Source: a virus. From it: DNA of 64,000 nucleotides. The DNA lies in IMG/VR virus record IMGVR_UViG_3300030329_005959, positions 40,266-104,265 of that record. One strand, given 5' to 3'. The first letter of the stretch is position 1, and each line of letters starts with the position of its first letter. A model generated the notes under the pieces. It had not been told where the DNA came from. It made no database searches and saw only the letters and a list, made by a program, of their open reading frames with translations. The position numbers and the translations under genes are program-made. This document shows positions 14,598 through 63,337 of the stretch, one piece after another.

Positions 14598-15615
14598 ACT
14601 CCAAACGCCGTTATCTGCTAGTAGAATAAAAACGGCGCAGTCGTGTTCGTGGCTCTATTGGTGCAAGTATAAGTTAAAGCTGCCCGATAAAAGCAATGAT
14701 GGAGCCCGAAGAGGCTCCATTTGCCATTTAGTTTTTGAAGTGCTTGGGGCAAAGGGAAGGAAGAAATATTATAATAAAATAATAAAAAGTCAAGATGTTT
14801 TTGCTGTCCCTTCGATAGAGCGATTAATTCTTAAACATGCTACTAGAGAGGGTATAGATGACCCTGAGAATGTAGAGCTAATGAAAGACATGATCTTCAA
14901 TGGTCTTTCGTATGATTTTTTTGGCTGTGATCTAGGAAAGCCCACAGAGGAATACTCAGAGAAGGATTTTGATATCATAAAAAATGATGGCAATATAAAA
15001 TACAAAATAAGAGGCTTTATAGATAAGTTATTTTTGTATAAAAAAAAGAAATTTGCTATCATACGAGACTTCAAGACGAGCAAAGAAGTTTTTAAAGGTA
15101 AAGACCAAACCGACAACCTGCAAGACCTTATGTATAGCCTTGCGGTTAAAAACCTGTTCCCCGAGTATTCTGAGAGAGTTAGCGAATTTCTCTTCCTTAA
15201 GTTCGACCTAGACCCCGATGCAGCAAAATCAGGTGTTGTCCGCATGAAGGCCCTTGACGAGAACGAGCTAGAGGGTTTTGAAATGCAGTTATCTGAAATA
15301 CAAAAATATTTAGACAACTTTTCTGAAAAAGATGCCAAGAAAAACTATGCCGCTCATCAAGGTTTTCCCAAAGACAACTCCTTTAGCGGAAAACTTCTAT
15401 GTGGATTTGCGACAAAGAAAGGAGAACTAAAGTTGGATGGCAGTCCCAAATGGCATTGCCCCATGAAGTTTGATTTCTTTTATTATCAAGTCACAAATTC
15501 AGAAGGAAAATTTGTGGCCTCATATTTTGAAGATGAGTTTTCCGAGGACTTGGTGCCTGAGGATTGCAGCTACGAAATGATGTATTATCAGGGTTGTCCC
15601 GCACATTCTTCTTGA
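14590..15615 (+). CDS. PD-(D/E)XK exonuclease, RecB/Cas4/AddB-like
   Basis: A 341-residue protein from ATG 14590, nested in the primase stop. The RecB-type nuclease motifs are GFIDKLF (D), IIRDFKTSK (the D-x-K pair) and the QDLMYSLA (Q-x3-Y) helix. Cysteines near the N-terminus (SCSWLYWC) and near the end (LLCGF, WHCP, GCP) are placed as in Cas4 and AddB, where one N-terminal and three C-terminal cysteines hold a 4Fe-4S cluster. It probably processes DNA ends for recombination-dependent replication. Confidence 0.75.
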   Translation: MPELQTPLSASRIKTAQSCSWLYWCKYKLKLPDKSNDGARRGSICHLVFEVLGAKGRKKYYNKIIKSQDVFAVPSIERLILKHATREGIDDPENVELMKDMIFNGLSYDFFGCDLGKPTEEYSEKDFDIIKNDGNIKYKIRGFIDKLFLYKKKKFAIIRDFKTSKEVFKGKDQTDNLQDLMYSLAVKNLFPEYSERVSEFLFLKFDLDPDAAKSGVVRMKALDENELEGFEMQLSEIQKYLDNFSEKDAKKNYAAHQGFPKDNSFSGKLLCGFATKKGELKLDGSPKWHCPMKFDFFYYQVTNSEGKFVASYFEDEFSEDLVPEDCSYEMMYYQGCPAHSS

Positions 15616-15646
15616 CCTTTCAAGGAAAAGGTCCAATATACAGGAG
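15612..15646 (+). promoter_or_regulatory. Candidate promoter with overlapping 7-bp inverted repeat
   Basis: A TTGACC box (15612-15617), 16-base spacer and CAATAT (15634-15639) end 7 bases before ATG 15647, the same layout as other promoters here. The inverted repeat GACCTTT / AAAGGTC (15614-15633) covers the -35 box and could be an operator or a weak terminator of the upstream gene. An AGGAG lies directly against the ATG. Confidence 0.4.
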
Positions 15647-16384
15647 ATGACTCCAGTATTCAAGTCAACCTACTCTATAGGGAAGAGCATTCTAACTCTC
15701 GATAAGGAAGAGACAGAGGGCGGTCCAGATAGTATAATTGAAATATGCAAAGAAAACTCCATCAAGTCTCTTGTTCTTGTGGAAGATTCAATGACAGGAT
15801 TTGTTACTGCCCACAATCGCTGCAAAGAGGCTGGTATTGATCTAGTCTTCGGCTTGAGAATTACCTGCTGCAATGATACTTATGAAGACGATGATTCTGA
15901 TCACAAGATTATAATTTTTGCTAAGAACGATGAGGGTTGCCGTTTACTCTACCGAATTTATTCATACGCTTACACAGGACAAAACGGTAAAGTAGATTTT
16001 GGGTTTCTGTTCGGTATTTGGGACGACAATATTGAATTAGTTATTCCTTTTTATGATTCTTTTATATATAATAATAACTTTCACTTTAAAAAGTGTGTCC
16101 CCGATTTTTCCACAATACTCCCGACTTTTTGGCTGGAAGCGAACGACTTACCCTTCGATGGCTTGTTAGCTGAGAAGGTATTAAAGTTTGCCCAAGGAAT
16201 GATGAGGCCAGTTAAGCGGGTAAAAACTATTCTATATAAAAACAGAGACGATGCTGAAGCTCTTCAAACTTACAAGATTCTCTGTAACCGAAATTTTGGC
16301 CGAGCCGCCTCTTTAAGTAGTCCTAACCTTAATCACTTCGGCAGTAAGGAGTTCTGCCTTGAATCTTATTTGCAATATGAATGA
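15647..16384 (+). CDS. Degenerate PHP domain of DNA polymerase III alpha, separate gene
   Basis: A 245-residue protein that follows the N-terminal PHP domain of DnaE: STYSIGKSILTL, then a helix, SLVLVEDSMTGFV, a KEAGIDLVFGLRI segment (canonical 'GIKPIIG') and the HKIIIFAKN-GC-LLYRIYSYAY part. In active PHP domains the first part carries H-x-H and the second L-T-D-H; here these are replaced (KSTYS, VEDSM), so metal-dependent activity is probably lost. It likely serves as a structural subunit pairing with the polymerase product of 17006-19561. The exonuclease gene is wedged between the two. Confidence 0.68.
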   Translation: MTPVFKSTYSIGKSILTLDKEETEGGPDSIIEICKENSIKSLVLVEDSMTGFVTAHNRCKEAGIDLVFGLRITCCNDTYEDDDSDHKIIIFAKNDEGCRLLYRIYSYAYTGQNGKVDFGFLFGIWDDNIELVIPFYDSFIYNNNFHFKKCVPDFSTILPTFWLEANDLPFDGLLAEKVLKFAQGMMRPVKRVKTILYKNRDDAEALQTYKILCNRNFGRAASLSSPNLNHFGSKEFCLESYLQYE

Positions 16385-17009
16385 GTCATTACTTAGATTT
16401 AACAAAAAGCAAAGATATCTTGTTTTTGACACTGAGACGGAGGGGCTGAATTTAGTTACCTCTAGGCCGTGGCAAATCGCTTGGTTGGTAGTGGAGGGAG
16501 ATACAATTCTTTCCCGTCATGACAAGTTTATAGATTGGCCTGACTTAAACGTTTCTGAAGGTGCAGCCAAAGTCACAGGCTTTTCTCGCAAAGAGTATGA
16601 AAAGAAAGCTGAAGCTCCCGACCAAGTGTGGTGCCAATTTTCTGCCCAACTTTATAATGAAGACAACTTAGTTATCGGGCAAAACCTTTTAGGTTTTGAT
16701 GTTTACATAATTAATGTGTGGCGCAAATTGATGGGTATGCAAAGTGATTACTCTTTTGTAAACCGAATCATAGATACTAAATCCTTGGCGACAGCTATTG
16801 CTAAACAAATCCCCGTAGAGAAGCAGAACTTTCTACCTTGGCAGTATAGGTTGCTGAACTACAGAGAAAGAGGCTTAAAAACCTCTCAAGCCACCCTTCT
16901 AAAAAAATACAGCATCCCCCACGATCCGAAGAGGCTCCACGATGCCCTTTATGATATTGAAATGAATTTTAAAGTTTTTCGTAAGCAACTTTTTGAGCTG
17001 GAGATATGA
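16377..17009 (+). CDS. DnaQ-like DEDDh 3'-5' exonuclease (proofreading)
   Basis: A 210-residue protein starting at ATG 16377, overlapping the PHP gene by 8 bases. Exo motifs: VFDTETEGL (D18, E20), GQNLLGFDVYI (Exo II Asp) and HDALYDIEMNF (Exo III His and Asp five residues later), so it belongs to the DEDDh class with all four acidic residues and the histidine. It is the expected proofreading partner of the C-family polymerase; phage C-family enzymes often use such epsilon-like proteins. The gene ends inside the polymerase start (ATGA). Confidence 0.85.
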   Translation: MNESLLRFNKKQRYLVFDTETEGLNLVTSRPWQIAWLVVEGDTILSRHDKFIDWPDLNVSEGAAKVTGFSRKEYEKKAEAPDQVWCQFSAQLYNEDNLVIGQNLLGFDVYIINVWRKLMGMQSDYSFVNRIIDTKSLATAIAKQIPVEKQNFLPWQYRLLNYRERGLKTSQATLLKKYSIPHDPKRLHDALYDIEMNFKVFRKQLFELEI

Positions 17010-19561
17010 ATTCCACTAAATATACAGGCTATAAAACCCCCTTTCCTGTAGGGGTTAAGCTGCCAAAAATCAAAATCGAAAAAAAATATTACGAAGAAGT
17101 CTCTTGCGTAGACCTGGAAGATAACTTCCAATTCCTTAGAAAGCTGTGTTTTAAAAAGGTCAAAGAAAAAGGTATAGACCAACAGGACAATGCTCAAATC
17201 TATTATGACCGTATTAAAGAAGAGTTGGCGATCTTCCAAGACTTAGGGTTTGTTGATTATATTCTTCTGAACTGGGACATCCTTAACTATTGCAAGGAAA
17301 ACGATATCCCCACGGGTGCGGGTCGCGGCAGTGCGGCGGGGTCTCTAGTTTTGTATGTTATAGGAGTCACTAACATTGACCCTATCGAGCATGATTTATT
17401 TTTTGAGCGCTTTGTGTCTAAGAGCAGAGCCAAAAAGATAGAACATGAAGGTGAAACTTATTTAGACGGCAGCTTGCTCGCTGATGTAGATAATGACATC
17501 TCTTATGATCGACGCGCCGAGGTCATTAAATATATTGAGAAAAAATTCGAAGGGCGAACTTCCAAGATTCTCACTTTAAACACTTTAAGCAGTAAGCTCT
17601 GCATGAAAGAGTGTGGTAAAATAGTTGAAGAATTAAGCGAGGGAGAGGTGAACCAAATCAGTGATACAATTCCCAAACACTTTGGGATAGTCGCCAAGCT
17701 AGACACAGCCTATGAGGAAAGTGAGACTTTTAAGGCTTATGCTGATAAATACCCCAAAGTCTTTAGGATAGCGCAGAAGCTCCAAGGACTAAACAAAAAT
17801 ACAGGGGTTCACCCTTCAGGTATTTGCATTTCTTATTATGATTTAGATGATATCATGCCGTTACAAACCACTAATGACGGGGCGTTGGTTTCTGGTTATG
17901 ACATGAATGATGTGGCTAGCCTAAGCGTTAAGTTTGATATCCTTGGTTTAAGGACTTTATCTGTAGTTCATGATGTCTGTAAGCAAATAGGGATAGATGC
18001 CTCTGAGATCGACCCCCATCACCATTCCATCTATGCAGCCTTGTCTTGTCTGCGGTCTCCGCAAGGGCTTTTTCAGATCGAAGCAGACACTAACTTCAAG
18101 GTATGCCAACAAATAGCTCCACGCGATCTTGAGCAACTTTCTGCGGTGGTCGCTATTGCTAGACCTGGGGCACTAGACTTTAAGGATAGATATGCAGAAT
18201 ATGCGCGAACAGGTGAATCTCAGTCGGTTCATGAATTTTTTGATGACATTCTTAGTTATACGGGTGGCATCCCCTTGTATCAGGAGCAGTTAATGAAAAT
18301 GGCTGTTAAAGTAGGATTCAGTCTGGATGAATCCGAGCAGCTTCGACGCATCGTGGGCAAGAAAAAGGTGGATCAAATGCCAGCGTGGAAAGCGAAGATC
18401 GAAGAGAAGATAGAAAAGAATAATCTCGATCCAGCCATCGGAGACGTTTTATGGAGCGTGGCAGAAGACTCTGCTAATTACTCTTTTAACAAATCTCACT
18501 CTATTAGTTACGCTTATCTTGCAGCTTGCACGGTGTATCTTAAATTTAACTACCCCAAGGAGTTCTTTTTAAGTCTTTTAAAATACACTAAATATGAGCC
18601 TAATTCTCATGAAGAGATAGCTAAAATTACCCAAGAATTAGGTAATTTTGGCATAAAGCTTTTACCTCCCGATCTTAATAAGTCTGATATTGATTTTAAG
18701 ATTGAAGAAGACAACATAAGATATGGCCTTAATTCTATCAAAGGCGTTTCCACCAAGGTTTTGGAGTCTTTATTAGAATTTAGAGAGGACTCGTTTGCTA
18801 ACAAGTATGAAGTATTTTTATCCGCGAAGCAAGCTGGGTTAAACATAGGGACTCTCTCTGCCTTAATACAAGCAGGACTTCTTGATTCATTTGTTTCTAG
18901 CAATCGGTGTCGATTAGTTTTAGAGGCTCAAACTTTTAACATTCTTACTGACCGAGAGAAGAGAAACCTGATTGCGTTAGGCCCTAAATACGACTACGAC
19001 ATTATCACAGCCATTCATGAGGCTAGGAAAGAGGAGATGGTGGGCGATGACAACCGCCAAATGTTTACAGAGAAGCGTTTCGGGACATTCCGCAAAAAAT
19101 TTAATCCATATAAAGAAATATATGAGATGAATTCAAAACACATCAAATATGCTAATTGGTATTTTGAAGAGAAACTTCTGGGCTATAGCTACTCTCACAA
19201 CATAAGGCAGGTTTTTAGTTACGAAGATGATTTTCACTCATCTGCGGTCGTGAGAGATTTACCTGATAGAGCAAACGTTAAGTTTGTGGGTATTCTGACT
19301 GACATTATCCGCAGGACTAGTAGAAATGGCAACAAATATGCCCGTCTGGACTTGCAAGACGAAGCGGGAAAAGTAGATGGTTTATTTCTTGACAGTCAAC
19401 GCGCACCGCGCCTCACTAATTATCTAGATTCTGGTAAGAAATTACCCAAAAAAGGGGAAATTATGATAATTTATGGCTCAAAGGGTGATGATGTTGTTTT
19501 TGTTGACAAACTCTTTCCATTAAAGGATAAAATCTACATGAAGTTATCTGAACTTAAATAG
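17006..19561 (+). CDS. dnaE: DNA polymerase III alpha (C-family) catalytic subunit lacking PHP
   Basis: An 851-residue replicative polymerase. Palm motifs: GAGRGSAAGS (104-113), the catalytic pair D160/D162 in ADVDNDISYDRR, and the third Asp D311 in KFDILGLRTLS. Fingers: LFQIEAD, IARPGAL, YQEQLMKMA, RRIVGKKK and FNKSHSISYAYLA. A C-terminal OB-fold (FVGILTDIIRRTSRNGNKY) follows. It begins where the PHP domain of a normal DnaE would end, so PHP and polymerase are encoded apart with the exonuclease between. There is no obvious tau- or clamp-binding peptide. All catalytic residues are present. Confidence 0.93.
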   Translation: MNSTKYTGYKTPFPVGVKLPKIKIEKKYYEEVSCVDLEDNFQFLRKLCFKKVKEKGIDQQDNAQIYYDRIKEELAIFQDLGFVDYILLNWDILNYCKENDIPTGAGRGSAAGSLVLYVIGVTNIDPIEHDLFFERFVSKSRAKKIEHEGETYLDGSLLADVDNDISYDRRAEVIKYIEKKFEGRTSKILTLNTLSSKLCMKECGKIVEELSEGEVNQISDTIPKHFGIVAKLDTAYEESETFKAYADKYPKVFRIAQKLQGLNKNTGVHPSGICISYYDLDDIMPLQTTNDGALVSGYDMNDVASLSVKFDILGLRTLSVVHDVCKQIGIDASEIDPHHHSIYAALSCLRSPQGLFQIEADTNFKVCQQIAPRDLEQLSAVVAIARPGALDFKDRYAEYARTGESQSVHEFFDDILSYTGGIPLYQEQLMKMAVKVGFSLDESEQLRRIVGKKKVDQMPAWKAKIEEKIEKNNLDPAIGDVLWSVAEDSANYSFNKSHSISYAYLAACTVYLKFNYPKEFFLSLLKYTKYEPNSHEEIAKITQELGNFGIKLLPPDLNKSDIDFKIEEDNIRYGLNSIKGVSTKVLESLLEFREDSFANKYEVFLSAKQAGLNIGTLSALIQAGLLDSFVSSNRCRLVLEAQTFNILTDREKRNLIALGPKYDYDIITAIHEARKEEMVGDDNRQMFTEKRFGTFRKKFNPYKEIYEMNSKHIKYANWYFEEKLLGYSYSHNIRQVFSYEDDFHSSAVVRDLPDRANVKFVGILTDIIRRTSRNGNKYARLDLQDEAGKVDGLFLDSQRAPRLTNYLDSGKKLPKKGEIMIIYGSKGDDVVFVDKLFPLKDKIYMKLSELK
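19503..19531 (+). promoter_or_regulatory. Weak candidate promoter for the ClpA-like gene
   Basis: Inside the end of the polymerase gene, TTGACA (19503-19508), 17 bases, GATAAA (19526-19531) precedes the in-frame polymerase codons M-K-L-S-E-L-K-stop. Transcription would begin about 37 bases before the ClpA-like start. The -10 match is poor. Confidence 0.3.
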
Positions 19562-19572
19562 TGTAATTAATT

Positions 19573-22002
19573 ATGATGGGTCTAACTGATTTCAATTTAA
19601 CACCAAAAGCAAAAAAAGGGTTAAAAGACGCCAAAAAATTCGCAGAAGCCAACGGACACGCGCTTGTAACTACCGAGCACCTAATTTACGGGTGCTTAGT
19701 TAATTTATCAGATAGCTGTGCCTTAAAACTTAAAGGATATGGGGTTCCTCTTGAACAAAAGGAATTTGTTAAAATCTTCAAAGATTACGCCTCTAAAAAT
19801 ACAAAGATTTTTGAATCTACAAAGGGGCAAGGAGGCTGGCACGAAGATGTTAACGAAGTAATTCTTTTCGCCAAAGAGTTTTCCGACCAGTTTGACAGTT
19901 ACTTTATTGGTGTTGAGCACATTTTGTATGTGATTTTAGACATGGAAGGCCCGTTTATCGCGCATTTGCGGGAAAACGCCATTGATCCCCTTCACGCAAA
20001 AGATGTAATAGAAACTCATGTTTTAGAAAGTAGCATCCCCCCCACAGACCAAATAAAAAATATTTTACAGATTCAGGGTAAAAGAAATTTTTCCCTCCAA
20101 GAAGAGGAGCAGCGCCCCGTAAGCCACTTAAGCAAGTATTGCATCAATCTTAATGAACGCTTTCTAGATAAACAATCCTCTAAAATTTCAGGTAGAGACG
20201 ATGAGACTAACGAACTAATAGAAATCCTCTCCAAAAAAAATAAAAGTAACGCTATTTTGGTCGGGGAGGCTGGAGTCGGTAAAACTGCGATTGTGGAGGG
20301 GTTAGCCCAACGTATAGTTTCCCAAACGGTGCCTCCCCACATGTCCCTAATGCAAATCTGTGGGGTTGATATCAGCGCTATGGTTGCTGGCACTAAATAC
20401 AGGGGAGAGTTTGAGGAGAGATTCAAGTCCCTTATCTCAGAAGCAGAAAAAGAACCTAATATAATTTTATTTTTTGACGAAATACACACAATCATCGGAG
20501 CGGGTAATTCGGAAGGGGCCGTAGACGCATCTAATATGTTAAAACCTGCTTTAGCAAGGGGCGACATAAAATGCATAGGCGCTACTACCTCCCAAGAGTA
20601 TAAGAAGTTTTTTGAGAAGGATACAGCCATGAAAAGAAGGTTTGACAAAATCGTGGTGGAGGAACCTTCCAAAGCAGATACTAAAAAAATAGTAATGGAG
20701 GCTCTTCCTTTTTATGAGGATTTTCACCACGTTGATTACAAAGAAGAAGATATCGACACCATCCTAGATCTGGCTGAAAAATTTTTAAGCAATAAAAGGT
20801 TTCCCGATAAAGCTTTTGATTTAGTGGATCAAATCGGAGCGAGGACTAGAATCAAGTATGTCCCCGTTTCCTCTCAAATGGCTTCTGCGAGGAAAAAATT
20901 CTGTGACTTCTTAGTCAAGAACGGGGAGGACAAAGAATTAAATGAGGAACAATTTACCGTTCTCTTAAAAGATTACCTGCAAGAACTCGCGGCGAGCGGG
21001 AAACCAAAAGGACGTAAGCAAAAAATACGACAGAAGGATATAATCGCTGTCTTTACTGAAAAAACAGGCTTGTCGCCCAAGACTATTGCTAAAAACAATT
21101 CAGCGTTTATCAATTTCCCCAAACACATGAATAGTGAGATATTTGGTCAAGAAGAGAATATCGAGACCATCCATAATGCTTTGTCTTGCGCTAAAGCGGG
21201 GCTGAATGACCCCCAGAAACCACTTTCTAACTTTTTGTTTATAGGGGGCACCAGTGTAGGTAAAACTTTCACTGCTAAGAAAATAGCTAAATATTTTTAT
21301 GGCAATGAAAAGTCCTTTTTACAACTTAACATGAGCGAATACCAAGATAAAACAGCTATCTCTAAGCTTATAGGAGCCAACGCAGGTTATGTGGGTTACG
21401 AGGACGGAGGACTTTTGACAGAGTTTGTTCGTAATAACCCCAACTGTGTCGTTCTATTTGATGAGGTGGAAAAATGCGACCCTAAAATCTTGGACTTATT
21501 ACTACATATTTTGGATGAAGGTTATGCCACAGACAACTTAAATAGAGAAATTGATTTTCGAAGAACAGTTATTGTTATGACCTCTAATATTGGTCACAGC
21601 GAAAAATCTAAACGAAGTATGGGATTCGTTCCTACCCAAGAAACAGACTCGGACATTTACAAAAAATCTCTAGAAAAGCATTTGCGTCCTGAATTACTAG
21701 CCCGATTAGACGAAATACTTTTCTTTAACGAGTTAAATGATAGCCACCTTCTTAAGATTATTAACCAAGAACTTAAGCATATTGCGACTCGTCTCTTAGA
21801 TAGAGGTATCGAACTAAGCTATAACTCCAGTGTAAAAAAACTTATTTTTAATAAAGCGAAAAGGAAAAACAGTCATGCTAGGCAGATTAAAAACCTAGTT
21901 AAAAGCACTATTCAAGTTCCTCTGTCTGAGTTTATTGTAAAAAATCGCAAAATAGAGAAAATTTCTCTTAAAGTAGTTGACAAATCGCTAGCATTTATAT
22001 AA
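19573..22002 (+). CDS. clpA: ClpA-like AAA+ unfoldase
   Basis: An 809-residue protein with a Clp N domain (1-150), D1 ATPase (Walker A GEAGVGKT 231-238, Walker B ILFFDE) and D2 ATPase (Walker A GGTSVGKT 558-565, Walker B VVLFDE). There is no long ClpB-type coiled middle domain, so it is ClpA/ClpC-like. At 682-685 the residues S-M-G-F occupy the site of the IGL/IGF loop that docks ClpP. No ClpP gene is in the window, so it may recruit host ClpP or act alone as a remodeller. It starts at one of two adjacent ATGs (19573 or 19576). Confidence 0.88.
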   Translation: MMGLTDFNLTPKAKKGLKDAKKFAEANGHALVTTEHLIYGCLVNLSDSCALKLKGYGVPLEQKEFVKIFKDYASKNTKIFESTKGQGGWHEDVNEVILFAKEFSDQFDSYFIGVEHILYVILDMEGPFIAHLRENAIDPLHAKDVIETHVLESSIPPTDQIKNILQIQGKRNFSLQEEEQRPVSHLSKYCINLNERFLDKQSSKISGRDDETNELIEILSKKNKSNAILVGEAGVGKTAIVEGLAQRIVSQTVPPHMSLMQICGVDISAMVAGTKYRGEFEERFKSLISEAEKEPNIILFFDEIHTIIGAGNSEGAVDASNMLKPALARGDIKCIGATTSQEYKKFFEKDTAMKRRFDKIVVEEPSKADTKKIVMEALPFYEDFHHVDYKEEDIDTILDLAEKFLSNKRFPDKAFDLVDQIGARTRIKYVPVSSQMASARKKFCDFLVKNGEDKELNEEQFTVLLKDYLQELAASGKPKGRKQKIRQKDIIAVFTEKTGLSPKTIAKNNSAFINFPKHMNSEIFGQEENIETIHNALSCAKAGLNDPQKPLSNFLFIGGTSVGKTFTAKKIAKYFYGNEKSFLQLNMSEYQDKTAISKLIGANAGYVGYEDGGLLTEFVRNNPNCVVLFDEVEKCDPKILDLLLHILDEGYATDNLNREIDFRRTVIVMTSNIGHSEKSKRSMGFVPTQETDSDIYKKSLEKHLRPELLARLDEILFFNELNDSHLLKIINQELKHIATRLLDRGIELSYNSSVKKLIFNKAKRKNSHARQIKNLVKSTIQVPLSEFIVKNRKIEKISLKVVDKSLAFI

Positions 22003-22003
22003 T
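21977..22003 (+). promoter_or_regulatory. Sigma70-like promoter, leaderless geometry
   Basis: Perfect TTGACA (21977-21982) and TATAAT (21998-22003) with a 15-base spacer, or TAATAT (22000-22005) with 17. The -10 box ends about 8 bases before ATG 22012. It lies inside the last codons of the ClpA-like gene. Predicted transcription begins at or next to the ATG. Confidence 0.75.
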
Positions 22004-22258: not shown

Positions 22259-22328
22259 TAAGAAGAAGTTGTTGCATCCTTCTTCTAAGAGTCAACCCCC
22301 TTGAAAAAGGGGGTTGATTTATTATTAT
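22259..22328 (+). terminator. Two stem-loops; rho-independent terminator with GAAA tetraloop
   Basis: A first inverted repeat AGAAGAAG / CTTCTTCT (22261-22286) is followed by an 11-bp stem (TCAACCCCCTT / AAGGGGGTTGA, 22292-22317) closed by GAAA and followed by TTTATTATTAT. The second is a good intrinsic terminator for 22012-22236. Its loop and 3' arm also carry the -35 box of the next promoter. Confidence 0.8.
22301..22328 (+). promoter_or_regulatory. Promoter embedded in the terminator hairpin
   Basis: TTGAAA (22301-22306), a 16-base spacer and TATTAT (22323-22328) end 5 bases before GTG 22334. The -35 box lies at the hairpin apex, and the T-rich tail doubles as the -10. It supports GTG 22334 as the start of the following gene. 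Confidence 0.5.
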
Positions 22329-22333
22329 AAGTA

Positions 22334-23398
22334 GTGAAACTCTCTTCTTTATTTAAAGACAAGGCTTATGCCTTTGCTCAGTCAGGCGACCCTGAAGACG
22401 ATTGTAAGTTCGCTACAGCTCTTCTCAAAAAAACCAACCCTGAACTTAACATAAAACATCTCGCCCTGTGGTCAGTCACGGATTATTACGATGTTTTCAT
22501 GATTTTAACTGCTAATCAAGAGCTTTTAAAATTAAAAATTTCTTTAAGTGATCCCGATCACGTTTTGGAAAAAGAAAGTGTTGTTTTAAGAAGAAGCCAT
22601 TGTCCTGCTCTCCCTATTTTGGTGGATTACGGAACAAGCAAAATAGGAGAAGAGGTTACTTATTTGTTGGCGCGTGTTCCTGCGGGAGAAAACGTGAGAA
22701 GTCAGGGCAGATCATGCTTAATAAATAATTTAGATTTATTTCTTAAGAGTTATTGGGTGTTTGCTAAAAGCCACAACGTTAAACCCACTTATAAAAAAGT
22801 CATAACTTATTTTACAAAAAATTTAATACCTCAGAATGTTTTAGGAAAAGAGTCTCTGGAGGCTTTAGAAGATTATACTGATTCTGATTTGTGCGAAAAA
22901 TTTCTCTTAGATCTCCGTGCAGATATTCTATCTCGCTTTAAAGACATACAGAAAAAACTAAACAAAAAATGTCATGCGGCCTTGTCCCTTGATTCAATTT
23001 TTTATTATGGTGGGGGTTTTTATTTTGATGAACTGCATAATGTTTGTATGGGTCATCCTTATATAGACTTTTGTGATATGGTGATTGAATCAGGCAGTCC
23101 TCCCGAAAATGATATTTATTTATGGAAACAATTTTGTGACAGCGGCTCTTTCCCGCAGGACAGAGATCTGTATGATAAGATTTATCAACTATGCCTAAGA
23201 AAAAAGCTCGCTGATTTATTAATTTCATACATCAAAGAGGTTTATGTTTATGATTCTTTTCGATACGAAGAAATCTTCCATGTAGCTGATAGCTTTTCCC
23301 ATGCCTATACTCGATTCCAAGAGATAGAATCTTTCTCAGAAAACAAAGATTTCATCATGAAAACGATTTGCGAGCCTATTTTTGGTGTAAAAGCATAG
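22334..23398 (+). CDS. Hypothetical protein, weak kinase-like (APH) resemblance
   Basis: A 354-residue protein starting at GTG 22334; no ATG occurs in frame until about residue 56, and the promoter geometry supports GTG. HAALSLDSIFYYGGGFY followed by an IDFCD segment is reminiscent of the H-x-D-x4-N and D-x-D catalytic loop of aminoglycoside/choline phosphotransferases, but the key acidic residues are altered. It could be a pseudokinase or unrelated. It overlaps nothing and leads a short operon with 23401-23613. Confidence 0.5.
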   Translation: MKLSSLFKDKAYAFAQSGDPEDDCKFATALLKKTNPELNIKHLALWSVTDYYDVFMILTANQELLKLKISLSDPDHVLEKESVVLRRSHCPALPILVDYGTSKIGEEVTYLLARVPAGENVRSQGRSCLINNLDLFLKSYWVFAKSHNVKPTYKKVITYFTKNLIPQNVLGKESLEALEDYTDSDLCEKFLLDLRADILSRFKDIQKKLNKKCHAALSLDSIFYYGGGFYFDELHNVCMGHPYIDFCDMVIESGSPPENDIYLWKQFCDSGSFPQDRDLYDKIYQLCLRKKLADLLISYIKEVYVYDSFRYEEIFHVADSFSHAYTRFQEIESFSENKDFIMKTICEPIFGVKA

Positions 23399-23623: not shown

Positions 23624-23965
23624 ATGCCCGAAAACAAAGAAACCAAATCAATTGACAGCAAGTTCTTAATCTCTTTAGGTATCGGGCTTGCTGTTCAAGC
23701 AGCGGGAATTGTATGGTGGGCTAGCAACTTACAAAGTTCTGTGCAGCATAACGATTACCAGCTCCAGATGTTAAAAAAGGATGTCGATGCTCACGCAATT
23801 TTTGTCCGCGACTGGCCAGCTGGCAAATGGGGTAGCGGAAGTCTCCCAGATGACGTAAAACAAAATTTAAAAATTTCGATGCTAGAGCTTGATGTGGAGA
23901 AGATTATGGAAAAGCTGTATAACGGCAGTCACTCTCCCCCTCCACAAGCCTCCAAAAATAATTGA
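23624..23965 (+). CDS. Small membrane-anchored hypothetical protein
   Basis: A 113-residue protein with one clear membrane helix (FLISLGIGLAVQAAGIVWWA, about 14-33), then a short coiled-coil stretch (YQLQMLKKDVDAH), a FVRDWPAGKWGSG segment and a helical tail. The layout (cytoplasmic N-terminus, one TM, outside coiled coil) resembles small phage membrane proteins near lysis or tail genes. No family assigned. Confidence 0.62.
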   Translation: MPENKETKSIDSKFLISLGIGLAVQAAGIVWWASNLQSSVQHNDYQLQMLKKDVDAHAIFVRDWPAGKWGSGSLPDDVKQNLKISMLELDVEKIMEKLYNGSHSPPPQASKNN

Positions 23966-23989
23966 ATTTCATTCTGTGATACATACAAT
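23962..23989 (+). promoter_or_regulatory. Sigma70-like promoter, leaderless geometry
   Basis: TTGAAT (23962-23967), a 16-base spacer and TACAAT (23984-23989), with five bases to ATG 23995. The -35 box overlaps the upstream TGA stop. Predicted start of transcription is at or within a base or two of the ATG. Confidence 0.6.
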
Positions 23990-43261: not shown

Positions 43262-43295
43262 TTTACACTTTATTACCCTATTATATAATAAAGAA
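43262..43295. promoter_or_regulatory. Divergent promoter region with shared palindromic -10
   Basis: On the + strand TTTACA (43262-43267), 16 bases, TATAAT (43284-43289), six bases, ATG 43296. The palindrome TATTATATAATA (43279-43290) also gives TATAAT on the - strand (43280-43285), with TTTAAT 16 bases upstream (43302-43307), pointing into the tail operon that starts at 43254. One element may therefore fire both ways. Confidence 0.55.
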
Positions 43296-44021
43296 ATGAA
43301 AATTAAAGACCTAAACGACGCTGCCACAGTATGGCCCTTTTTTTACGATTACTCTGTGAGGTCTAAGCCCTATAGCGGCTGTGAGTCCCCGTCTGCTATC
43401 CTGAGGAAAGAAAAAATAAAAGGTTTCTTTGAGGATTTAGGGCACTCTTGTGAAATATACAGAGCGGAAGAAGATGGAGAGCCCTTTGGTTTCATGTTTA
43501 CCAAAGTAGAGAAAGATTTCATGTATCTCAGCTTTGCTTTCGGGATTAGTTCTAGCAGTAAATTCTCCCATACAAAATGGACGGAGTGTATTTACCGTCT
43601 TTTTGACTTACTTCTAGAAAAATACAAAAAAAATTATTTTGTAGCAGAAATAAGAAGAGAACACAAAGTGGAAGCATTTAAAAAGTGGATTGAAAAATAT
43701 CAAAAAAAAGCTATACTCTTTAAAGATCCAAAAAATACTATTGTTTGGTGTAAATCAGAACGTATGAGTGTAATATTTAAAGTTGTCGGGACAAATAAGA
43801 CAACAGAACATTTGATGGGCAAAGAAGCCTCGTTAGGATATACCCGTAAAGGGCCGCGTTGTGTAGTGCGGGAGCTTCTTTTCGAAGATCAGCGTTATAT
43901 TTTAGATGAAAAAAGTATTGACTTCCTTTCTGATCATGTTTTAATCCACGGGTTGCTGTCAGACGACAAAGAAAATGTCGGAAGAATAGCGCTTAAATTT
44001 GAGCCACAAAAGATAAAATGA
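43296..44021 (+). CDS. Hypothetical protein, weak GNAT-like N-terminal half
   Basis: A 241-residue protein starting at ATG 43296, fitted to the promoter just upstream. EEDGEPFGFMFTKVEKDFMY, then a helix (KWTECIYRLFDLLLEKY) and a VEAFKKWIEKY helix, resemble a distant GNAT fold, but no acetyl-CoA loop is convincing. The C-terminal ~90 residues (KTTEHLMGKEASLGYTRKG) are unassigned. First gene of a + strand run toward the lysis region. Confidence 0.5.
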   Translation: MKIKDLNDAATVWPFFYDYSVRSKPYSGCESPSAILRKEKIKGFFEDLGHSCEIYRAEEDGEPFGFMFTKVEKDFMYLSFAFGISSSSKFSHTKWTECIYRLFDLLLEKYKKNYFVAEIRREHKVEAFKKWIEKYQKKAILFKDPKNTIVWCKSERMSVIFKVVGTNKTTEHLMGKEASLGYTRKGPRCVVRELLFEDQRYILDEKSIDFLSDHVLIHGLLSDDKENVGRIALKFEPQKIK

Positions 44022-44596: not shown

Positions 44597-44624
44597 TTGA
44601 CAAAGATTTTCCACTAACTAATAT
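44597..44624 (+). promoter_or_regulatory. Sigma70-like promoter, leaderless geometry
   Basis: Perfect TTGACA (44597-44602), 16-base spacer, TAATAT (44619-44624), then eight bases to ATG 44633. It drives the single outer-membrane gene, which has its own terminator. Confidence 0.75.
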
Positions 44625-45377: not shown

Positions 45378-45400
45378 GTATTCGGTGTAAATAAATAAAC

Positions 45401-45718
45401 ATGGAACCCGAAAAGTCTATTTTAAAGGAGTTTCTTAACGGCGGGTGGTTGGTCCCATTAGTGGGCGCTGCGGCGATGTTAGCTAGGCTTTTGTCGGGCA
45501 ACAATGAACTGTCGTGTAAACAGCAATTAAAAAGAATATTAACGGCAGCTATAGCTGCTGGTGTTGCTTGGTTTGTCTTAGAGCAAACTGATGTTTCGTC
45601 GTTAACCAAGGCTATTACATATGGCATTATCGGTGTTGTGAGCCCCGAAGTCATATCTGGTATAGTGCGACTAGGAGAAAAGTTCGCCAAGAACCCAGAA
45701 AAATTTATTAAAAAATGA
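45401..45718 (+). CDS. Holin (LydA-like)
   Basis: A 105-residue protein with three hydrophobic segments: GGWLVPLVGAAAMLARLL (14-31), ILTAAIAAGVAWFVL (46-60) and AITYGIIGVVSPEVI (71-85), flanked by charged ends with a lysine-rich tail. Size and plan match LydA-type holins (Phage_holin_3). It leads a three-gene unit with 45715-46320 and the endolysin, each overlapping by 4 bases. A TAAATA sequence lies 7 bases before the ATG, but no matching -35 is seen. Confidence 0.75.
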   Translation: MEPEKSILKEFLNGGWLVPLVGAAAMLARLLSGNNELSCKQQLKRILTAAIAAGVAWFVLEQTDVSSLTKAITYGIIGVVSPEVISGIVRLGEKFAKNPEKFIKK

Positions 45719-46944: not shown

Positions 46945-46972
46945 TTGACACCGAGGCTCAAACCTCTACTAT
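46945..46972 (+). promoter_or_regulatory. Sigma70-like promoter, leaderless geometry
   Basis: Perfect TTGACA (46945-46950), 16 bases, TACTAT (46967-46972), and eight bases to ATG 46981. It resolves the start of the next gene, since the alternative upstream TTG start coincides with the -35 box. Confidence 0.75.
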
Positions 46973-48794: not shown

Positions 48795-48822
48795 TTGCTA
48801 TAATAGAGCCAACAGATATAAT
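48795..48822 (+). promoter_or_regulatory. Sigma70-like promoter, leaderless geometry
   Basis: TTGCTA (48795-48800), 16 bases, TATAAT (48817-48822), six bases to ATG 48829. A second TATAAT (48799-48804) overlaps the -35. Confidence 0.6.
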
Positions 48823-49362: not shown

Positions 49363-49376
49363 GTGTAATAGAAAGT

Positions 49377-50545: not shown

Positions 50546-50573
50546 TTGACTTTTGTTTCAGTAGGCAGATAAT
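50546..50573 (+). promoter_or_regulatory. Sigma70-like promoter
   Basis: TTGACT (50546-50551), 16 bases, GATAAT (50568-50573), eleven bases to ATG 50585. The leader would be only about four bases long. Confidence 0.5.
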
Positions 50574-50584: not shown

Positions 50585-50815
50585 ATGGACCTTGATGATT
50601 GCGACTTGTATTTTGCTGATGATGCCATTCGCTTCACTGGCTTAGATGAATGTGCCATAGGTGTTGACCAGAGAGGTTATATAGTCTACTCCTATCAAAA
50701 GATGCTTGAGCATTTTATGAAGGACATGAGTTACGAAGAAGCCGAGGAGTGGATCGGTTTCAATGTCGTGGGTATCAAACCTGATACATATACTGTTGTA
50801 TATAATGAACATTAA
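50585..50815 (+). CDS. Small acidic hypothetical protein
   Basis: A 76-residue acidic protein (DLDDCDLYFADDAIRFTGLD, then MKDMSYEEAEEWIGFNVVG). The FTGLDECAIGVDQRG part recalls short phage proteins with a Y-S-x-x-K-M-L motif (YSYQKMLEHFMKDM). No function assigned. It overlaps the next gene by 11 bases. Confidence 0.6.
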   Translation: MDLDDCDLYFADDAIRFTGLDECAIGVDQRGYIVYSYQKMLEHFMKDMSYEEAEEWIGFNVVGIKPDTYTVVYNEH

Positions 50816-52265: not shown

Positions 52266-52342
52266 GGGTGCGTAGTCCAACTGGCAGAGACAACGGACTT
52301 AAAATCCGTCCAGTGCGGGTTCGAATCCCGCCGCGCCTACCA
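52266..52342 (+). tRNA. tRNA-Leu (anticodon UAA), short variable arm, CCA encoded
   Basis: Full cloverleaf: acceptor GGGTGCG / CGCGCCT, D arm with GG in the loop, anticodon stem ACGGA / TCCGT with loop CTTAAAA, five-base variable loop, T arm GCGGG / CCCGC with TTCGAAT, discriminator A and encoded CCA. Anticodon UAA reads UUA. Bacterial tRNA-Leu normally has a long variable arm; this one is class I, although it keeps A73. Confidence 0.92.
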
Positions 52343-54615: not shown

Positions 54616-54708
54616 ACTATTATATACACTATGGTCGGGGTGAAAAAAATTCGAATTAAGGCAAAAAAATGCTTGCGCCCCCATTTCCCTAGTATATAGT
54701 GTCTCCAT
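54616..54708. promoter_or_regulatory. Divergent promoter region of the AT-hook/RuvB operon
   Basis: On the + strand TTGCGC (54673-54678), 16 bases, TATAGT (54695-54700), eight bases, ATG 54709. On the - strand TATAAT lies three bases before ATG 54615 with TTTTCA 16 bases upstream. Both give near-leaderless transcripts. The region sits between two genes running in opposite directions. Confidence 0.6.
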
Positions 54709-58386: not shown

Positions 58387-58387
58387 T

Positions 58388-59178: not shown

Positions 59179-59207
59179 TTGACCCCCACCGTAGGTGGGG
59201 GTAGAGT
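59179..59207 (+). promoter_or_regulatory. Promoter with perfect palindrome in its spacer
   Basis: TTGACC (59179-59184), 17 bases, TAGAGT (59202-59207), six bases to ATG 59214. The spacer is filled by a perfect 9-bp inverted repeat, ACCCCCACC / GGTGGGGGT, around GTA (59182-59202). It is an ideal operator for a dimeric repressor. Confidence 0.6.
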
Positions 59208-59213
59208 GCAGCC

Positions 59214-59611: not shown

Positions 59612-59629
59612 GGTATGCGAATCTTGCGT

Positions 59630-59709
59630 CATAAGTCGTTGATACTTAGGGAGTTACGGCGAGCGGCGGGGCGCGTCCTCGTAACTCGTTGACGCTTAGT
59701 GACTTATGA
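59630..59709. repeat. Double-hairpin GC-core element, copy A
   Basis: Starts CATAAGTCGTTGA, has a GC-rich core (GAGCGGCGGGGCGCG), then GTAACTCGTTGACGC and ends TGACTTATG; the two ends are also inverted repeats of each other. It overlaps the stop codon of the - strand gene at 59704. Confidence 0.8.
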
Positions 59710-59901: not shown

Positions 59902-60220
59902 AAAAGGGATGATTGTATTCTTCTGGTTCCTTCCACTGATGGCATTCCTCGGGCCTATGATTCATAGAAGCGCAAACTAGAGCCTGTCTGCTCATCTGTA
60001 TCTTTTGCCACACACTCTTTTTCCACGTTTGCCAGTCTGGGCTATATGCTTTTTGCCACAACCCATCTACTAAAAAGTAGGTAGTCGCATGAATTATTTC
60101 ACACGTTATGGGATCGTAGTAAGTCCGCAACAAGGCTTGCGTGTTCTCGCATGGGAGAATGTGATCTGCGATGAACTTGCTCTGCCCGTTGCCAAGGGCT
60201 ATATGCTCGTTGTCGTTCAT
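59885..60220 (-). CDS. Hypothetical protein
   Basis: A 111-residue protein with many tryptophans and histidines (VDGLWQKAYSPDWQTWKK, MNHRPEECHQWKEPEE). The C-H pattern could bind a metal, but spacing does not match a known finger. It overlaps the AT-hook gene by 17 bases. Confidence 0.55.
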   Translation of the reverse strand: MNDNEHIALGNGQSKFIADHILPCENTQALLRTYYDPITCEIIHATTYFLVDGLWQKAYSPDWQTWKKSVWQKIQMSRQALVCASMNHRPEECHQWKEPEEYNHPFYEHDE

Positions 60221-60221
60221 G

Positions 60222-60398
60222 TTAAAATTCTTCTACTCTATGCCCGTCCTCGCAAGTCTCTTCGTATCTAGTGCCGTTACCGTATTGACCTTCACCATCC
60301 AATACTTTCTGGATAGCATCGGCTCGGCTCACGGCATCCACGACAGCTTCCTGCCAGTGGATCTCTCTAAGGTATACTTTGTAGGGTCGTTCTTCCAT
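60222..60398 (-). CDS. Small acidic hypothetical protein
   Basis: A 58-residue protein from ATG 60398, one base after the upstream stop; a longer reading to 60527 lies inside that gene and is unlikely. EERPYKVYLREIHWQEAVV then VSRADAIQKVLDGEG: a small strand-helix module with the 'v-v-d-A-x-s-r-x-d-A-i-q' pattern common in phage. Confidence 0.58.
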   Translation of the reverse strand: MEERPYKVYLREIHWQEAVVDAVSRADAIQKVLDGEGQYGNGTRYEETCEDGHRVEEF

Positions 60399-60399
60399 C

Positions 60400-60744
60400 T
60401 TACCACCACGAATCGTATGCAACTTCGTATCCCTTGGCAAGATATTCTCTCGCCACCCTGATAAACTCCAACGTCTGAGCTTGGTAATGCTCACAGAAAC
60501 GAGAGTCACCACCGAAAAACAAACCACCTGTCTCGGGCAACATCTTATTGGTTACAACCAACTCCAGCATCTCAAGGTCTGCCTCGACCAACTCCAGAGG
60601 AACACAATTAAACTGTTTGGTCCCACCCTTCTTGCGATAGAGTTTCTCCATCCAACCGTGCAAGGCATTGTGCTTGCGCCAATAGGCGATTTCTTTTACT
60701 TCGCCCTCTGGACTCCTAACTTTCCCGTATGCGTCTAATCCCAT
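60400..60744 (-). CDS. Phage-conserved protein of the MGLDxY family
   Basis: A 114-residue protein. It opens GLDAYGKVRSPEGEVKEIAY then WRKHNALHGWMEKLYRKKGG, and ends with LPETGGLFFGG and a REYLAKGYEVAYDSWW helix. The same 'MGLDxY... WRKH-x-L-x-x-W' pattern occurs widely in phages of many hosts, function unknown. It opens a - strand operon with a leaderless promoter. Confidence 0.7.
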   Translation of the reverse strand: MGLDAYGKVRSPEGEVKEIAYWRKHNALHGWMEKLYRKKGGTKQFNCVPLELVEADLEMLELVVTNKMLPETGGLFFGGDSRFCEHYQAQTLEFIRVAREYLAKGYEVAYDSWW

Positions 60745-60753
60745 AACGCGGCT

Positions 60754-60781
60754 ATTATATCAGGGTATCGGGTCTGTGCAA
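60754..60781 (-). promoter_or_regulatory. Sigma70-like promoter, near-leaderless, after repeat B
   Basis: On the - strand TTGCAC (60781-60776), 16 bases, TATAAT (60759-60754), nine bases to ATG 60744. Repeat B ends ~30 bases upstream. Confidence 0.65.
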
Positions 60782-60810
60782 GCCCTTTTTTATTCTTTTT
60801 TATCCTTTAT

Positions 60811-60887
60811 AACTCGTTGAAACTCAACGAGTTACGGGCGCGGGGCGGGGCCGCAGCCGTAAGTCCTTGAGGGTGAGTGAGTTGTGG
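60811..60887. repeat. Double-hairpin GC-core element, copy B
   Basis: AACTCGTTGAAACTCAACGAGTT is a 10-bp hairpin, followed by the GC core (GCGCGGGGCGGGGCCGC) and a second, weaker AAGTCCTTGA...TGAGTTG pair. Its end touches the CCA of the tRNA-Asp gene. Confidence 0.85.
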
Positions 60888-60961
60888 CGGGAGCAACGGG
60901 ACTTGAACCCGTGACCTCTAGCGTGACAGGCTAGCGCTCTAACCTACTGAGCTACGCCCCC
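60885..60961 (-). tRNA. tRNA-Asp (anticodon GUC), CCA encoded
   Basis: On the - strand: acceptor GGGGGCG / TGCTCCC, anticodon stem with loop CTGTCAC (anticodon GTC), T arm ACGGG / CCCGT, discriminator G73 (an Asp identity element), encoded CCA. All arms pair well. Confidence 0.93.
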
Positions 60962-60987
60962 TAACCAAGAAGCATTGTGAGGATGAG

Positions 60988-61185
60988 TCAACCAAAGATT
61001 AAAAGTCCTTCTTGTGAGCCATAGACTTCCCTCTCGCCACAGCATTCACATTCATATTTGGTAGCATCAGGCTCAACCCCCGCTTGCACTTCACCGCAAG
61101 ACATACATAACCCTTCGTTGCTGTCTGCCATTGCTAGATCAAGCAACAGTTCTATTTTGTCGTGGCTAGTCATTGGATGGGTCAT
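60988..61185 (-). CDS. Small zinc-ribbon protein
   Basis: A 65-residue protein. LCMSCGEVQAGVEPDATKY followed by ECECCGERE gives two C-x-x-C pairs of a zinc ribbon. May regulate transcription or bind a partner. Overlaps 61182-61388 by 4 bases. Confidence 0.65.
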   Translation of the reverse strand: MTHPMTSHDKIELLLDLAMADSNEGLCMSCGEVQAGVEPDATKYECECCGEREVYGSQEGLLIFG

Positions 61186-61388
61186 ACTGGTGGGTGTAGC
61201 TCTTGTGCCATATCGTATAGATTTTTTTCTGCTTCGTCAAGCAACTTTCCAATCGCTATGATCTGATTTCGGACCTCCCTTGCGTTGCCCTTGCTTTCTT
61301 CATCTCTCGTAATTGCGAGAGACTTCATAGACATCTCGTAGTAGTTAAGAAGTTTTTCTGTGTGTTCTTCCCAGTTTGGAGTTTTCAT
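61182..61388 (-). CDS. Small helical hypothetical protein
   Basis: A 68-residue helical protein (NWEEHTEKLLNYYEMSMKSL, then AIGKLLDEAEKNLYDMAQEL) with coiled-coil character. Co-transcribed with the zinc-ribbon gene from the promoter at 61607-61634 through a ~210-base leader. Confidence 0.58.
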   Translation of the reverse strand: MKTPNWEEHTEKLLNYYEMSMKSLAITRDEESKGNAREVRNQIIAIGKLLDEAEKNLYDMAQELHPPV

Positions 61389-61390
61389 TT

Positions 61391-61447
61391 TTAAAAGAGA
61401 TGAGAGGAAGGATTTATATTATTACCTTCAACTTTCAGCTTACACAT
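61391..61447 (-). CDS. Possible 18-residue leader peptide
   Basis: On the - strand ATG 61447 begins M-C-K-L-K-V-E-G-N-N-I and ends TAA two bases before ATG 61388. It sits at the end of the long leader and could couple or attenuate translation. Weak evidence. Confidence 0.28.
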   Translation of the reverse strand: MCKLKVEGNNINPSSHLF

Positions 61448-61606
61448 GTTTCAGTTTAGCCTACTCGCACTCCACACATAAAAACTCAGTCGGTTGACCC
61501 CTGTCTAAATGCACAGATACCTTATCGCTGTGTTGGACGATTATTCAGTCACTCTCGATTGGGGAGCTACCCCAAAGTAGAAATTGTTATCGTTGAAGCT
61601 GCGAGT
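61448..61606 (-). other. Structured 5' leader of the 61388 operon
   Basis: Region between the promoter start (~61600) and the small leader peptide. It contains a hairpin TTGGGG / CCCCAA (about 61559-61575) and no longer gene. The other promoters here give leaderless transcripts, so a 200-base leader is exceptional and may be regulatory or a small RNA. Confidence 0.4.
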
Positions 61607-61634
61607 ATTATAGCAGGTTTCGGGGTGGGGTCAA
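61607..61634 (-). promoter_or_regulatory. Sigma70-like promoter after repeat C
   Basis: On the - strand TTGACC (61634-61629), 16 bases, TATAAT (61612-61607). Repeat C ends ~37 bases upstream. The spacer (CCACCCCGAAACCTGC) is C-rich like those of the promoters near repeats B and D. Confidence 0.7.
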
Positions 61635-61670
61635 GCACTTTCGGCTATTTATTTTCTTTTTTTTTCATTT

Positions 61671-61748
61671 ATAACTCGTTGATCCTCAACGAGTTACGGG
61701 GATCGGCCCCGCCCCCCGCCGTAACTCACTGATACTCAGTCAGTTACG
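61671..61748. repeat. Double-hairpin GC-core element, copy C
   Basis: AACTCGTTGATCCTCAACGAGTT (10-bp hairpin), GC core (GGGATCGGCCCCGCCCCCC), then GTAACTCACTGATACTCAGTCAGTTAC (second hairpin). The stop of the 61736 gene lies inside the second hairpin. Confidence 0.88.
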
Positions 61749-61870
61749 TCCAACTTGGCGAAGTTTTCTACTACGATATCGCAAAGATGCCCGATGATTC
61801 CATCGTCCATTCCATCAAGGAAGGTTATGATGTCTTGCTGGATCTGTTCCCTGCACTCTTCTTTGTTCAT
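61736..61870 (-). CDS. Small acidic protein ending in repeat C
   Basis: A 44-residue protein from ATG 61870, overlapping the next upstream gene by 4 bases (ATGT...). NKEECREQIQQDIITFLDGM is helical, then DDGIIGHLCDIVVENFAKLD. Its last codons and TGA are made by the second hairpin of repeat C. Confidence 0.6.
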   Translation of the reverse strand: MNKEECREQIQQDIITFLDGMDDGIIGHLCDIVVENFAKLDVTD

Positions 61871-62076
61871 CTTATGTTAGCTACATCTTTTTTGATCTGC
61901 GCTATGCGCTTTGCGAGTAGACTGCCCTTGTCGTTGGGTTCATCGGTGTGACCCTCTAACAAGTCATCTAGTTGGTCATAAACAAGCTGGTAACTACATG
62001 CCCGTCTCATCTGCGGCAACCACCTAGCCACATTGATTAAACCTTTCGTTTTGCGTGGTCGTCCTCCCTTGTTCAT
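61867..62076 (-). CDS. AT-hook-like small protein
   Basis: A 69-residue protein starting NKGGRPRKTKGL, an AT-hook core (G-R-P), followed by a helical body (LPQMRRACSYQLVYDQLDDL). Third AT-hook protein in the right arm. Overlaps both neighbours by 4 bases. Confidence 0.62.
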   Translation of the reverse strand: MNKGGRPRKTKGLINVARWLPQMRRACSYQLVYDQLDDLLEGHTDEPNDKGSLLAKRIAQIKKDVANIR

Positions 62077-62279
62077 ATAGACTCTAGCAATTCTTTTGTT
62101 TTTTCGCGGTCAGCAATCAGCTTGTCAATGAGACCGCCCATCTTGACAAACTCTTTCTTAGCCCAAAGGACATCTTCACTGTCCTCGCTCCGATCAATGA
62201 TGAGGAGCAACGCTTGAGCGGTGCCTCTCCAAGTCGGGGAAACCCGAATGGTTTTTTTGATTTTTTCTACTTCGGTCAT
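62073..62279 (-). CDS. Small helical hypothetical protein
   Basis: A 68-residue protein (EVEKIKKTIRVSPTWRGTAQ, then ALLLIIDRSEDSEDVLWAKK). Overlaps its neighbours by 4 bases each. No motif. Confidence 0.55.
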   Translation of the reverse strand: MTEVEKIKKTIRVSPTWRGTAQALLLIIDRSEDSEDVLWAKKEFVKMGGLIDKLIADREKTKELLESI

Positions 62280-62344
62280 CTATTTCGATATGTGCATATT
62301 ACTAAGAGCAGACTGGTTACGATTACGAAGGTGATGTCTAGCAT
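62276..62344 (-). CDS. Possible 22-residue membrane micropeptide
   Basis: ATG 62344 lies in the last codons of the upstream gene and TGA (62278-62276) overlaps the next ATG (ATGA). The product is one hydrophobic stretch (LDITFVIVTSLLLVICTY). Coupling at both ends makes translation plausible. Chance cannot be excluded. Confidence 0.38.
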   Translation of the reverse strand: MLDITFVIVTSLLLVICTYRNR

Positions 62345-63030
62345 GGCTCCACAACAAACCCCGTTTCGTCCTTCTTTGCAAGTCCTTTTTCAAGCAACCC
62401 GACAATCACACCCCGTGGATCTTGAAAGCGCAAGTCACTATCATCACCATCAACAACCTTTATACCTTGCCAATGGCTTGGTAGGTGGTCACGAAAGACT
62501 ATCGCCACGTTGCCTCGGATTCCTGGCCTTTTGCATATCTCATGGATGAGTTCATCAGGTGTCTCTTCACTCCGTGAGTATGTCAGGTGGTAATTGTTCG
62601 GGAGCTTACCGTCTAAGAACCTAAAGAATCTTTTCAAGTGTTTGGTGTAGTCGTAGAATTGAATCGTAGGAAAGTATTTAACAACCAGATTTTCCCACGG
62701 TAAGTCACTTGTGAGATTCAAACGGAAGCAACTCTTTAATTCCTTTCGCGATGCGCTTTTAACCGAGCTTTGGATTTCTTTGTATAGCTGCGATAGGAAT
62801 CCATCCCTATCCTCGAAAAACCTTCGTGTCTTTTTAATTCGGGCATCTTGAACGGTATGCATGATGCCACGACCTGCCGTATTGAGACAAGCAGCAGAAC
62901 AACCAGCAGTAGCAGAAGAACAAACATTTTTTCCTGATAGGTTATATGGTGCAAGGTGCAAGCCGTAGGTTTTCCAACCATACTTCTCACCCTTGATTGT
63001 TTTATGGTTTCCTGCGTTAAGCAATTTCAT
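62338..63030 (-). CDS. Gp88-like phage protein with cysteine cluster
   Basis: A 230-residue protein. KLLNAGNHKTIKGEKYGW and LHLAPYNLSGKNVCSSATAG, then CSAACLNTAGRG, match the conserved start of the mycobacteriophage gene-88 family ('K-L-l-s-G-N-x-K... C-x6-C-x3-C-L-x-t-a-G-r-G'). Later FYDYTKHLKRF and YHLTYSRSEE also match. The cysteines may bind a metal or iron-sulfur cluster. The function of the family is unknown. Confidence 0.72.
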   Translation of the reverse strand: MKLLNAGNHKTIKGEKYGWKTYGLHLAPYNLSGKNVCSSATAGCSAACLNTAGRGIMHTVQDARIKKTRRFFEDRDGFLSQLYKEIQSSVKSASRKELKSCFRLNLTSDLPWENLVVKYFPTIQFYDYTKHLKRFFRFLDGKLPNNYHLTYSRSEETPDELIHEICKRPGIRGNVAIVFRDHLPSHWQGIKVVDGDDSDLRFQDPRGVIVGLLEKGLAKKDETGFVVEPC

Positions 63031-63301
63031 TTGTGGTAGGTGTCTTGTGGTTTGCTGTGTTGTCGAAGCCGCTAATTTTTCTTTGCTTCGGTCCTTCTTC
63101 TTCCTCCTCTATGATATTGATATCCCAAAGCACAAGTCCATCATATTCTGGCTTGCAGTCAATAGCAGATTGCACACTGTCCTTTACTTTCCCCGTGTTA
63201 TTAAAGAAAGCGGTGTTTGATATAACTTCCCCTGTGTTGCCGTCATAATAGCAAATGGAAAACGATTTGGTAGTGAGTCTCGGTGGTGTAATTCCTGACA
63301 T
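63017..63301 (-). CDS. Hypothetical protein
   Basis: A 94-residue protein from ATG 63301, set by the promoter; a longer reading up to 63337 would start inside the -35. It shows strands FSICYYDGNTGEVISNTAFF and the acidic NIIEEEEEGPKQRK. Overlaps the Gp88-like gene by 14 bases. Confidence 0.6.
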   Translation of the reverse strand: MSGITPPRLTTKSFSICYYDGNTGEVISNTAFFNNTGKVKDSVQSAIDCKPEYDGLVLWDINIIEEEEEGPKQRKISGFDNTANHKTPTTNEIA

Positions 63302-63308
63302 GGTGGGG

Positions 63309-63337
63309 AGTATAGCACGGGGGTGCGGGTCTGTCAA
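63309..63337 (-). promoter_or_regulatory. Sigma70-like promoter, leaderless geometry, after repeat D
   Basis: On the - strand TTGACA (63337-63332), 17 bases, TATACT (63314-63309), seven bases to ATG 63301. Repeat D begins about 25 bases upstream. Confidence 0.75.

Follow-up and report, generated by a model that had tools for sequence, protein, structure and literature searches.

The window analysed here is a 64,000-nucleotide stretch of viral DNA taken from the IMG/VR record IMGVR_UViG_3300030329_005959, which is 104,265 bases long; it spans positions 40266-104265. The window carries genes for a DnaB-like helicase, a primase, a DNA polymerase III alpha-like polymerase, a UvsX-like recombinase, a Clp-like ATPase and a protein resembling tail protein J. 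A run of genes at 24-9973 of the window reads, from sequence only, as devoted to sugar or surface modification (aminotransferase, NeuB-like, cytidylyltransferase-like and GDP-mannose dehydratase-like proteins), and a tRNA gene of just 77 bases with anticodon TAA (52266-52342) is called as tRNA-Leu, without the long variable arm usual in leucine tRNAs. A nucleotide search gave no match to annotated phages, none of which is close, and all relatives found by protein searches fall below 60% identity; relatives of the helicase are encoded on 234 IMG/VR stretches, and those of a sigma-like protein described below on 302 stretches in viral contigs of IMG/VR. Related loci are not independent, and non-redundant counts are given for that reason. 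Gene starts come from a codon-based caller made for this analysis, which prefers ATG and ignores promoters.

An earlier note listed 13 sigma70-type promoters directly ahead of start codons, and all of them exist as it had them; when the window's 1,953 ATGs were ranked by promoter score at gaps of 4-11 bases between -10 box and start codon, the top 1% took in 11 of the 13 sites and the top 3.4% also those of 15647 and 54709, and the best-scoring ATGs were mostly gene starts. Scoring used a textbook sigma70 weight matrix with base frequencies from general knowledge. The site of the PHP-domain gene (ATG 15647) is TTGACC-16-CAATAT with gap 7 (15612-15639, plus strand); its orthologs retain TTGAC...TAnnnT...ATG despite the weak match in the present genome, and the gene before it ends on the TGA contained in the TTGA. 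On the same strand, TTGACA-15-TATAAT with gap 8 (21977-22003) precedes a gene for a 74-residue protein of unknown function (ATG 22012) in a layout kept in orthologs, and TTGAAA-16-TATTAT with gap 5 (22301-22328) precedes GTG 22334, with the -10 box kept in orthologs. A terminator-like hairpin, CCCCCTTGAAAAAGGGGG (22290-22334), provides the -35 element of the latter in its loop; hairpin and layout are kept in orthologs while the stem varies. Further plus-strand sites are TTGAAT-16-TACAAT with gap 5 at ATG 23995 (23962-23989), which is weak, not kept by orthologs and doubtful; TTTACA-16-TATAAT with gap 6 at ATG 43296 (43262-43289); TTGACA-16-TAATAT with gap 8 (44597-44624) at ATG 44633, the start of an outer-membrane-like protein with a MipA match; TTGACA-16-TACTAT with gap 8 at ATG 46981 (46945-46972); TTGCTA-16-TATAAT with gap 6 at ATG 48829 (48795-48822); TTGACT-16-GATAAT with gap 11 at ATG 50585 (50546-50573); TTGCGC-16-TATAGT, weak in its -35, with gap 8 at ATG 54709 (54673-54700); and TTGACC-17-TAGAGT with gap 6 at ATG 59214 (59179-59207). 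On the minus strand lie TTGCAC-16-TATAAT with gap 9 at ATG 60744 (60754-60781) and TTGACA-17-TATACT with gap 7 at ATG 63301 (63309-63337), the layout of the latter being present in one ortholog (L169). The near-consensus elements ascribed to these sites need correction at 43296 (TTTACA, not TTGACA), at 50585 (GATAAT, gap 11) and at the weak sites of 23995 and 15647.

A position-weight scan of all start codons of the record, with a call threshold of 7.5 bits, placed a promoter ending 4-11 bases upstream of the start in 14 of 124 genes, a share of 11.3%, whereas other ATGs reached 1.2% and shuffled upstream regions 0.5% (binomial P ~4e-10 over the whole record), so that the equal frequency in shuffled sequence on which the proposed family would have foundered was not seen. 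Among 80 related loci the layout occurs at 13.4% of genes over a background of 0.7-0.8%. In the 104-kb record the score peaks at gaps of 4-11 only and is near background at distances above 11 bases; the relatives have an additional peak at 60-67 bases, due at least partly to one conserved stretch upstream of the uvsX-like gene. No gap 4-11 peak appears in lambda, T4 (first 50 kb), crAss001 (first 50 kb), HTVC010P or Flavobacterium phage 11b. AT-rich upstream regions might by their composition mimic TATAAT near an ATG, and 15647, 54709 and 23995 are indeed weak members of the list; however, the layout stays at background level in shuffled sequence, at ATGs that start no gene, in reversed patterns, in the other phages and at genes inside operons, and these controls refute a chance origin of the site family as a whole, to which we assign next to no probability.

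The geometry of the sigma70 class is narrow. Among 73 non-redundant examples, 71 have a spacer of 16-17 bases and 71 a gap of 5-9 bases, with a mode of 6. A -10 box occupies positions -12 to -7, leaving six bases before +1, so with gap 6 the A of the ATG would itself be +1. The distance from TTGACN15-19TANNNT to the start is 4-9 bases at 100 sites and 10-29 bases at none, and across whole records of 13 relatives TTGACN17-18TANNNTN4-10ATG matches 106 times compared with nine for the reversed pattern. In ortholog upstream regions, including those of 15647 and 22012, TTGAC, TAnnnT and ATG are fixed while the intervening and flanking bases vary. The -10 boxes do lie, as previously suggested, where an RNA would begin at the start codon or next to it, and this layout is conserved across the phage family. 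Certain start calls are uncertain, and real promoters could in principle precede ordinary leaders if the true start codons lay further downstream; against this, similarity to ortholog proteins starts within the first three residues, the distance from ATG to box is fixed and the called starts show no upstream Shine-Dalgarno enrichment, which makes such misplaced starts very improbable.

The sigma70 class described in the earlier note stands, but a second class was missed. GTGTAA is the most over-represented hexamer upstream of starts (12 genes versus one expected) and ends 6-10 bases before the ATG in about 12-13 genes of this record. The pattern GTGTAAN5-11ATG occurs 14 times here against one reversed control, and 170 times against 24 summed over 13 relatives, with an excess in all 13. 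One copy (19561-19566, plus strand, gap 6) precedes an ATP-dependent protease-like gene at ATG 19573 and is kept by nearly all non-redundant orthologs listed; likewise, GTGTAA is kept in nearly all the non-redundant examples listed for two genes from the record's left part, for which 53 and 64 orthologs were found. Another copy (43263-43268, minus strand, gap 8) precedes ATG 43254 of a 702-residue gene heading the minus-strand tail genes and is overlapped by the divergent sigma70-type promoter of 43296. Two more lie on the plus strand at 45385-45390 (gap 10), directly after a terminator-like hairpin and ahead of a gene with a weak holin match (ATG 45401), and at 49363-49368 (gap 8, ATG 49377). 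The nature of the downstream genes suggests that the class may be expressed late. No clear -35 element is found upstream of GTGTAA, as would suit a translation signal or some other signal near the start codon; its absence before operon-internal starts, its occurrence in intergenic and divergent regions and its position after the terminator-like hairpin at 45401 argue instead for a promoter, and leave the reading as a translation or other signal unlikely.

A gene to the left of the window (L002:4220-4933) encodes a sigma-like protein of 238 residues, which matches PF04542 (Sigma70_r2) at 24.2 bits against a cut-off of 24 (E 2.8e-5) and TIGR02937 over residues 37-199 (E 2.6e-5, below the TIGR02937 cut-off), with no match to PF04545 (region 4). 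Each of the 27 homologs that were aligned has a match to a sigma family, at E values of up to 1. Its structure model is poor (pLDDT 62.6), and ECF sigma factors make up most of the best PDB matches, none of which reaches E 0.001. The protein has a variable cysteine-containing insert, and the homolog of one relative (G010:C1:7161-7859, L198) contains an in-frame TAG. Sigma homologs were found in eight of 13 relative records; in the other five, which have GTGTAA sites and may be incomplete, none was found. This phage ECF-like sigma is probably the reader of the GTGTAA class and is proposed as the candidate for that role.

The scarcity of Shine-Dalgarno motifs reported earlier is confirmed, with a motif in 25 of 121 genes compared with ~22 expected, and 80 related loci show no excess; lambda, T4 (first 50 kb) and HTVC010P are strongly enriched. 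Five-base matches are slightly raised in the phage's own genome (10% versus 5%), and a few of its genes may use them. When promoters are defined strictly, as sigma70 sites with at least 9/12 matches (nine unit starts) or GTGTA[AT] (11 unit starts), one of either class is found at 20 of 58 transcription-unit starts but at none of 63 operon-internal genes, from which it follows that the leaderless layout holds for first genes. A looser count by eye puts a promoter at roughly 28-30 of the 58, leaving many unit starts at which none was recognised. The description of a phage built "largely" on leaderless translation of "many small units" is not supported in those words, given that 63 of the 121 genes, about half, are operon-internal and lack a strict promoter of both classes. 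Many of them begin in ATGA overlaps, and a 4-base overlap is the commonest same-strand junction (21 here, 342 in relatives), which suggests translational coupling.

We propose that the sites of both classes are promoters of leaderless mRNAs, an explanation we hold to be very likely. The host's RNA polymerase, carrying the housekeeping sigma, would read the promoters resembling TTGACA-N16/17-TATAAT, with transcription predicted to start on the start codon or up to ~5 bases upstream, so that we infer 5' ends at or beside the ATG. GTGTAA, likewise placed, would serve other genes, including the tail and protease-like genes, and would be read by the phage sigma. With the AUG at the very 5' end, ribosomes would then initiate there without pairing to a Shine-Dalgarno motif. 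Genes inside operons, many of which share 4 bases with the gene before, would probably rely on coupled translation.

As to why a phage should be organized in this way, it is rather likely that it copies its host, leaderless sigma70 genes being normal in a host phylum such as Verrucomicrobiota or another leaderless, Shine-Dalgarno-poor lineage, and that nothing in the layout is an adaptation specific to the phage; such copying agrees with the leaderless-promoter explanation and supplies its cause. Summed over 59 genomes of the phylum of a Verrucomicrobiales bin (G007, G021-G078), TTGACAN16-17TATNNTN5-8ATG occurs 253 times versus 16 reversed, which suggests that leaderless genes are widespread there, and 91 times versus 63 reversed over 40 genomes of the class of a Flavobacteriaceae bin; for tRNA-Asp, the top match scores 91.5 bits in the former group and 77.9 bits in the latter. 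Cellular contigs of a Woesebacteria bin (G004, L175-L189) have a leaderless promoter at 16.9% of genes. The genome bearing that name is a mix of cellular and phage contigs, the cellular ones without Shine-Dalgarno excess at 4 bases, and its leaderless signal is accordingly cellular at least in part. Host copying does not explain the GTGTAA class, however, and the relatives are scattered over Flavobacteriaceae, Verrucomicrobiales, Woesebacteria and Lokiarchaeota bins, which disagree on the host. Naming the host by binning was rejected, as the nine contigs with relatives in metagenome-assembled genomes fall in unrelated named groups in a scan of genome contigs. Verrucomicrobiota fits best by virtue of the same promoter layout and the closest tRNA-Asp, and is our best guess with about an even chance of being right; Patescibacteria is a possible host and is kept as a candidate because the Woesebacteria cellular contigs show the layout. 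The putative outer-membrane-like protein with the MipA match argues for a two-membrane host. Shine-Dalgarno-scarce organisms include some Verrucomicrobia (PMC10783764); no papers on phages of Verrucomicrobia were found with the search terms used.

In the literature found, a genome-wide leaderless layout in phages is mainly known from Thermus phages, while here it is conserved over many environmental contigs and in two classes. It offers a rule, based on sequence, by which the genes and transcription units of such phages can be located, and a clue to which hosts they infect; it is also a natural system in which to study 5'-AUG initiation and the way a phage sigma can set the transcription start on the start codon. 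The GTGTAA class, with its candidate phage sigma, resembles the late promoters of T4 (TATAAATA, gp55), which depend on a phage-encoded sigma and have a -10-like element but no evident -35. The T4 genes keep Shine-Dalgarno leaders (first 50 kb), whereas the present element is GTGTAA, 6-10 bases before the ATG. The leaderless mRNA of lambda is that of cI transcribed from PRM. This is one leaderless gene only, in a genome enriched in Shine-Dalgarno motifs throughout and without a gap 4-11 peak, and it represents the classic leaderless phage mRNA (PMC3160421). Among cellular genes, the -10 motif adjoins the ORF in Deinococcus-Thermus (PMC12340547), and TANNNT lies ~12 bases upstream of bacterial leaderless genes, Verrucomicrobia not being among the leaderless phyla listed (PMC3160421). 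These genes resemble those of the present phages in having the -10 immediately ahead of the start codon, an arrangement for leaderless mRNA, but their -10 is able to act without a -35, which the phage promoters usually have at 16-17 bases. The closest known case is the Thermus thermophilus phage phiYS40, whose middle and late transcripts are mostly without leader according to PMC3594737, which cites the original work. As far as that account goes, the likeness would lie in the leaderless layout; phiYS40 has a thermophilic host, and the present group has sigma70-type and GTGTAA classes that are both leaderless in layout, together with a phage sigma-like gene. It may equally well prove true or not that these phages form a large uncultured group without 5' leaders at most transcription units, with two classes read by host sigma70 and by their own ECF-like sigma, and so the equivalent of phiYS40 for a phylum of hosts (probably Verrucomicrobiota) in which leaderless expression is little described.
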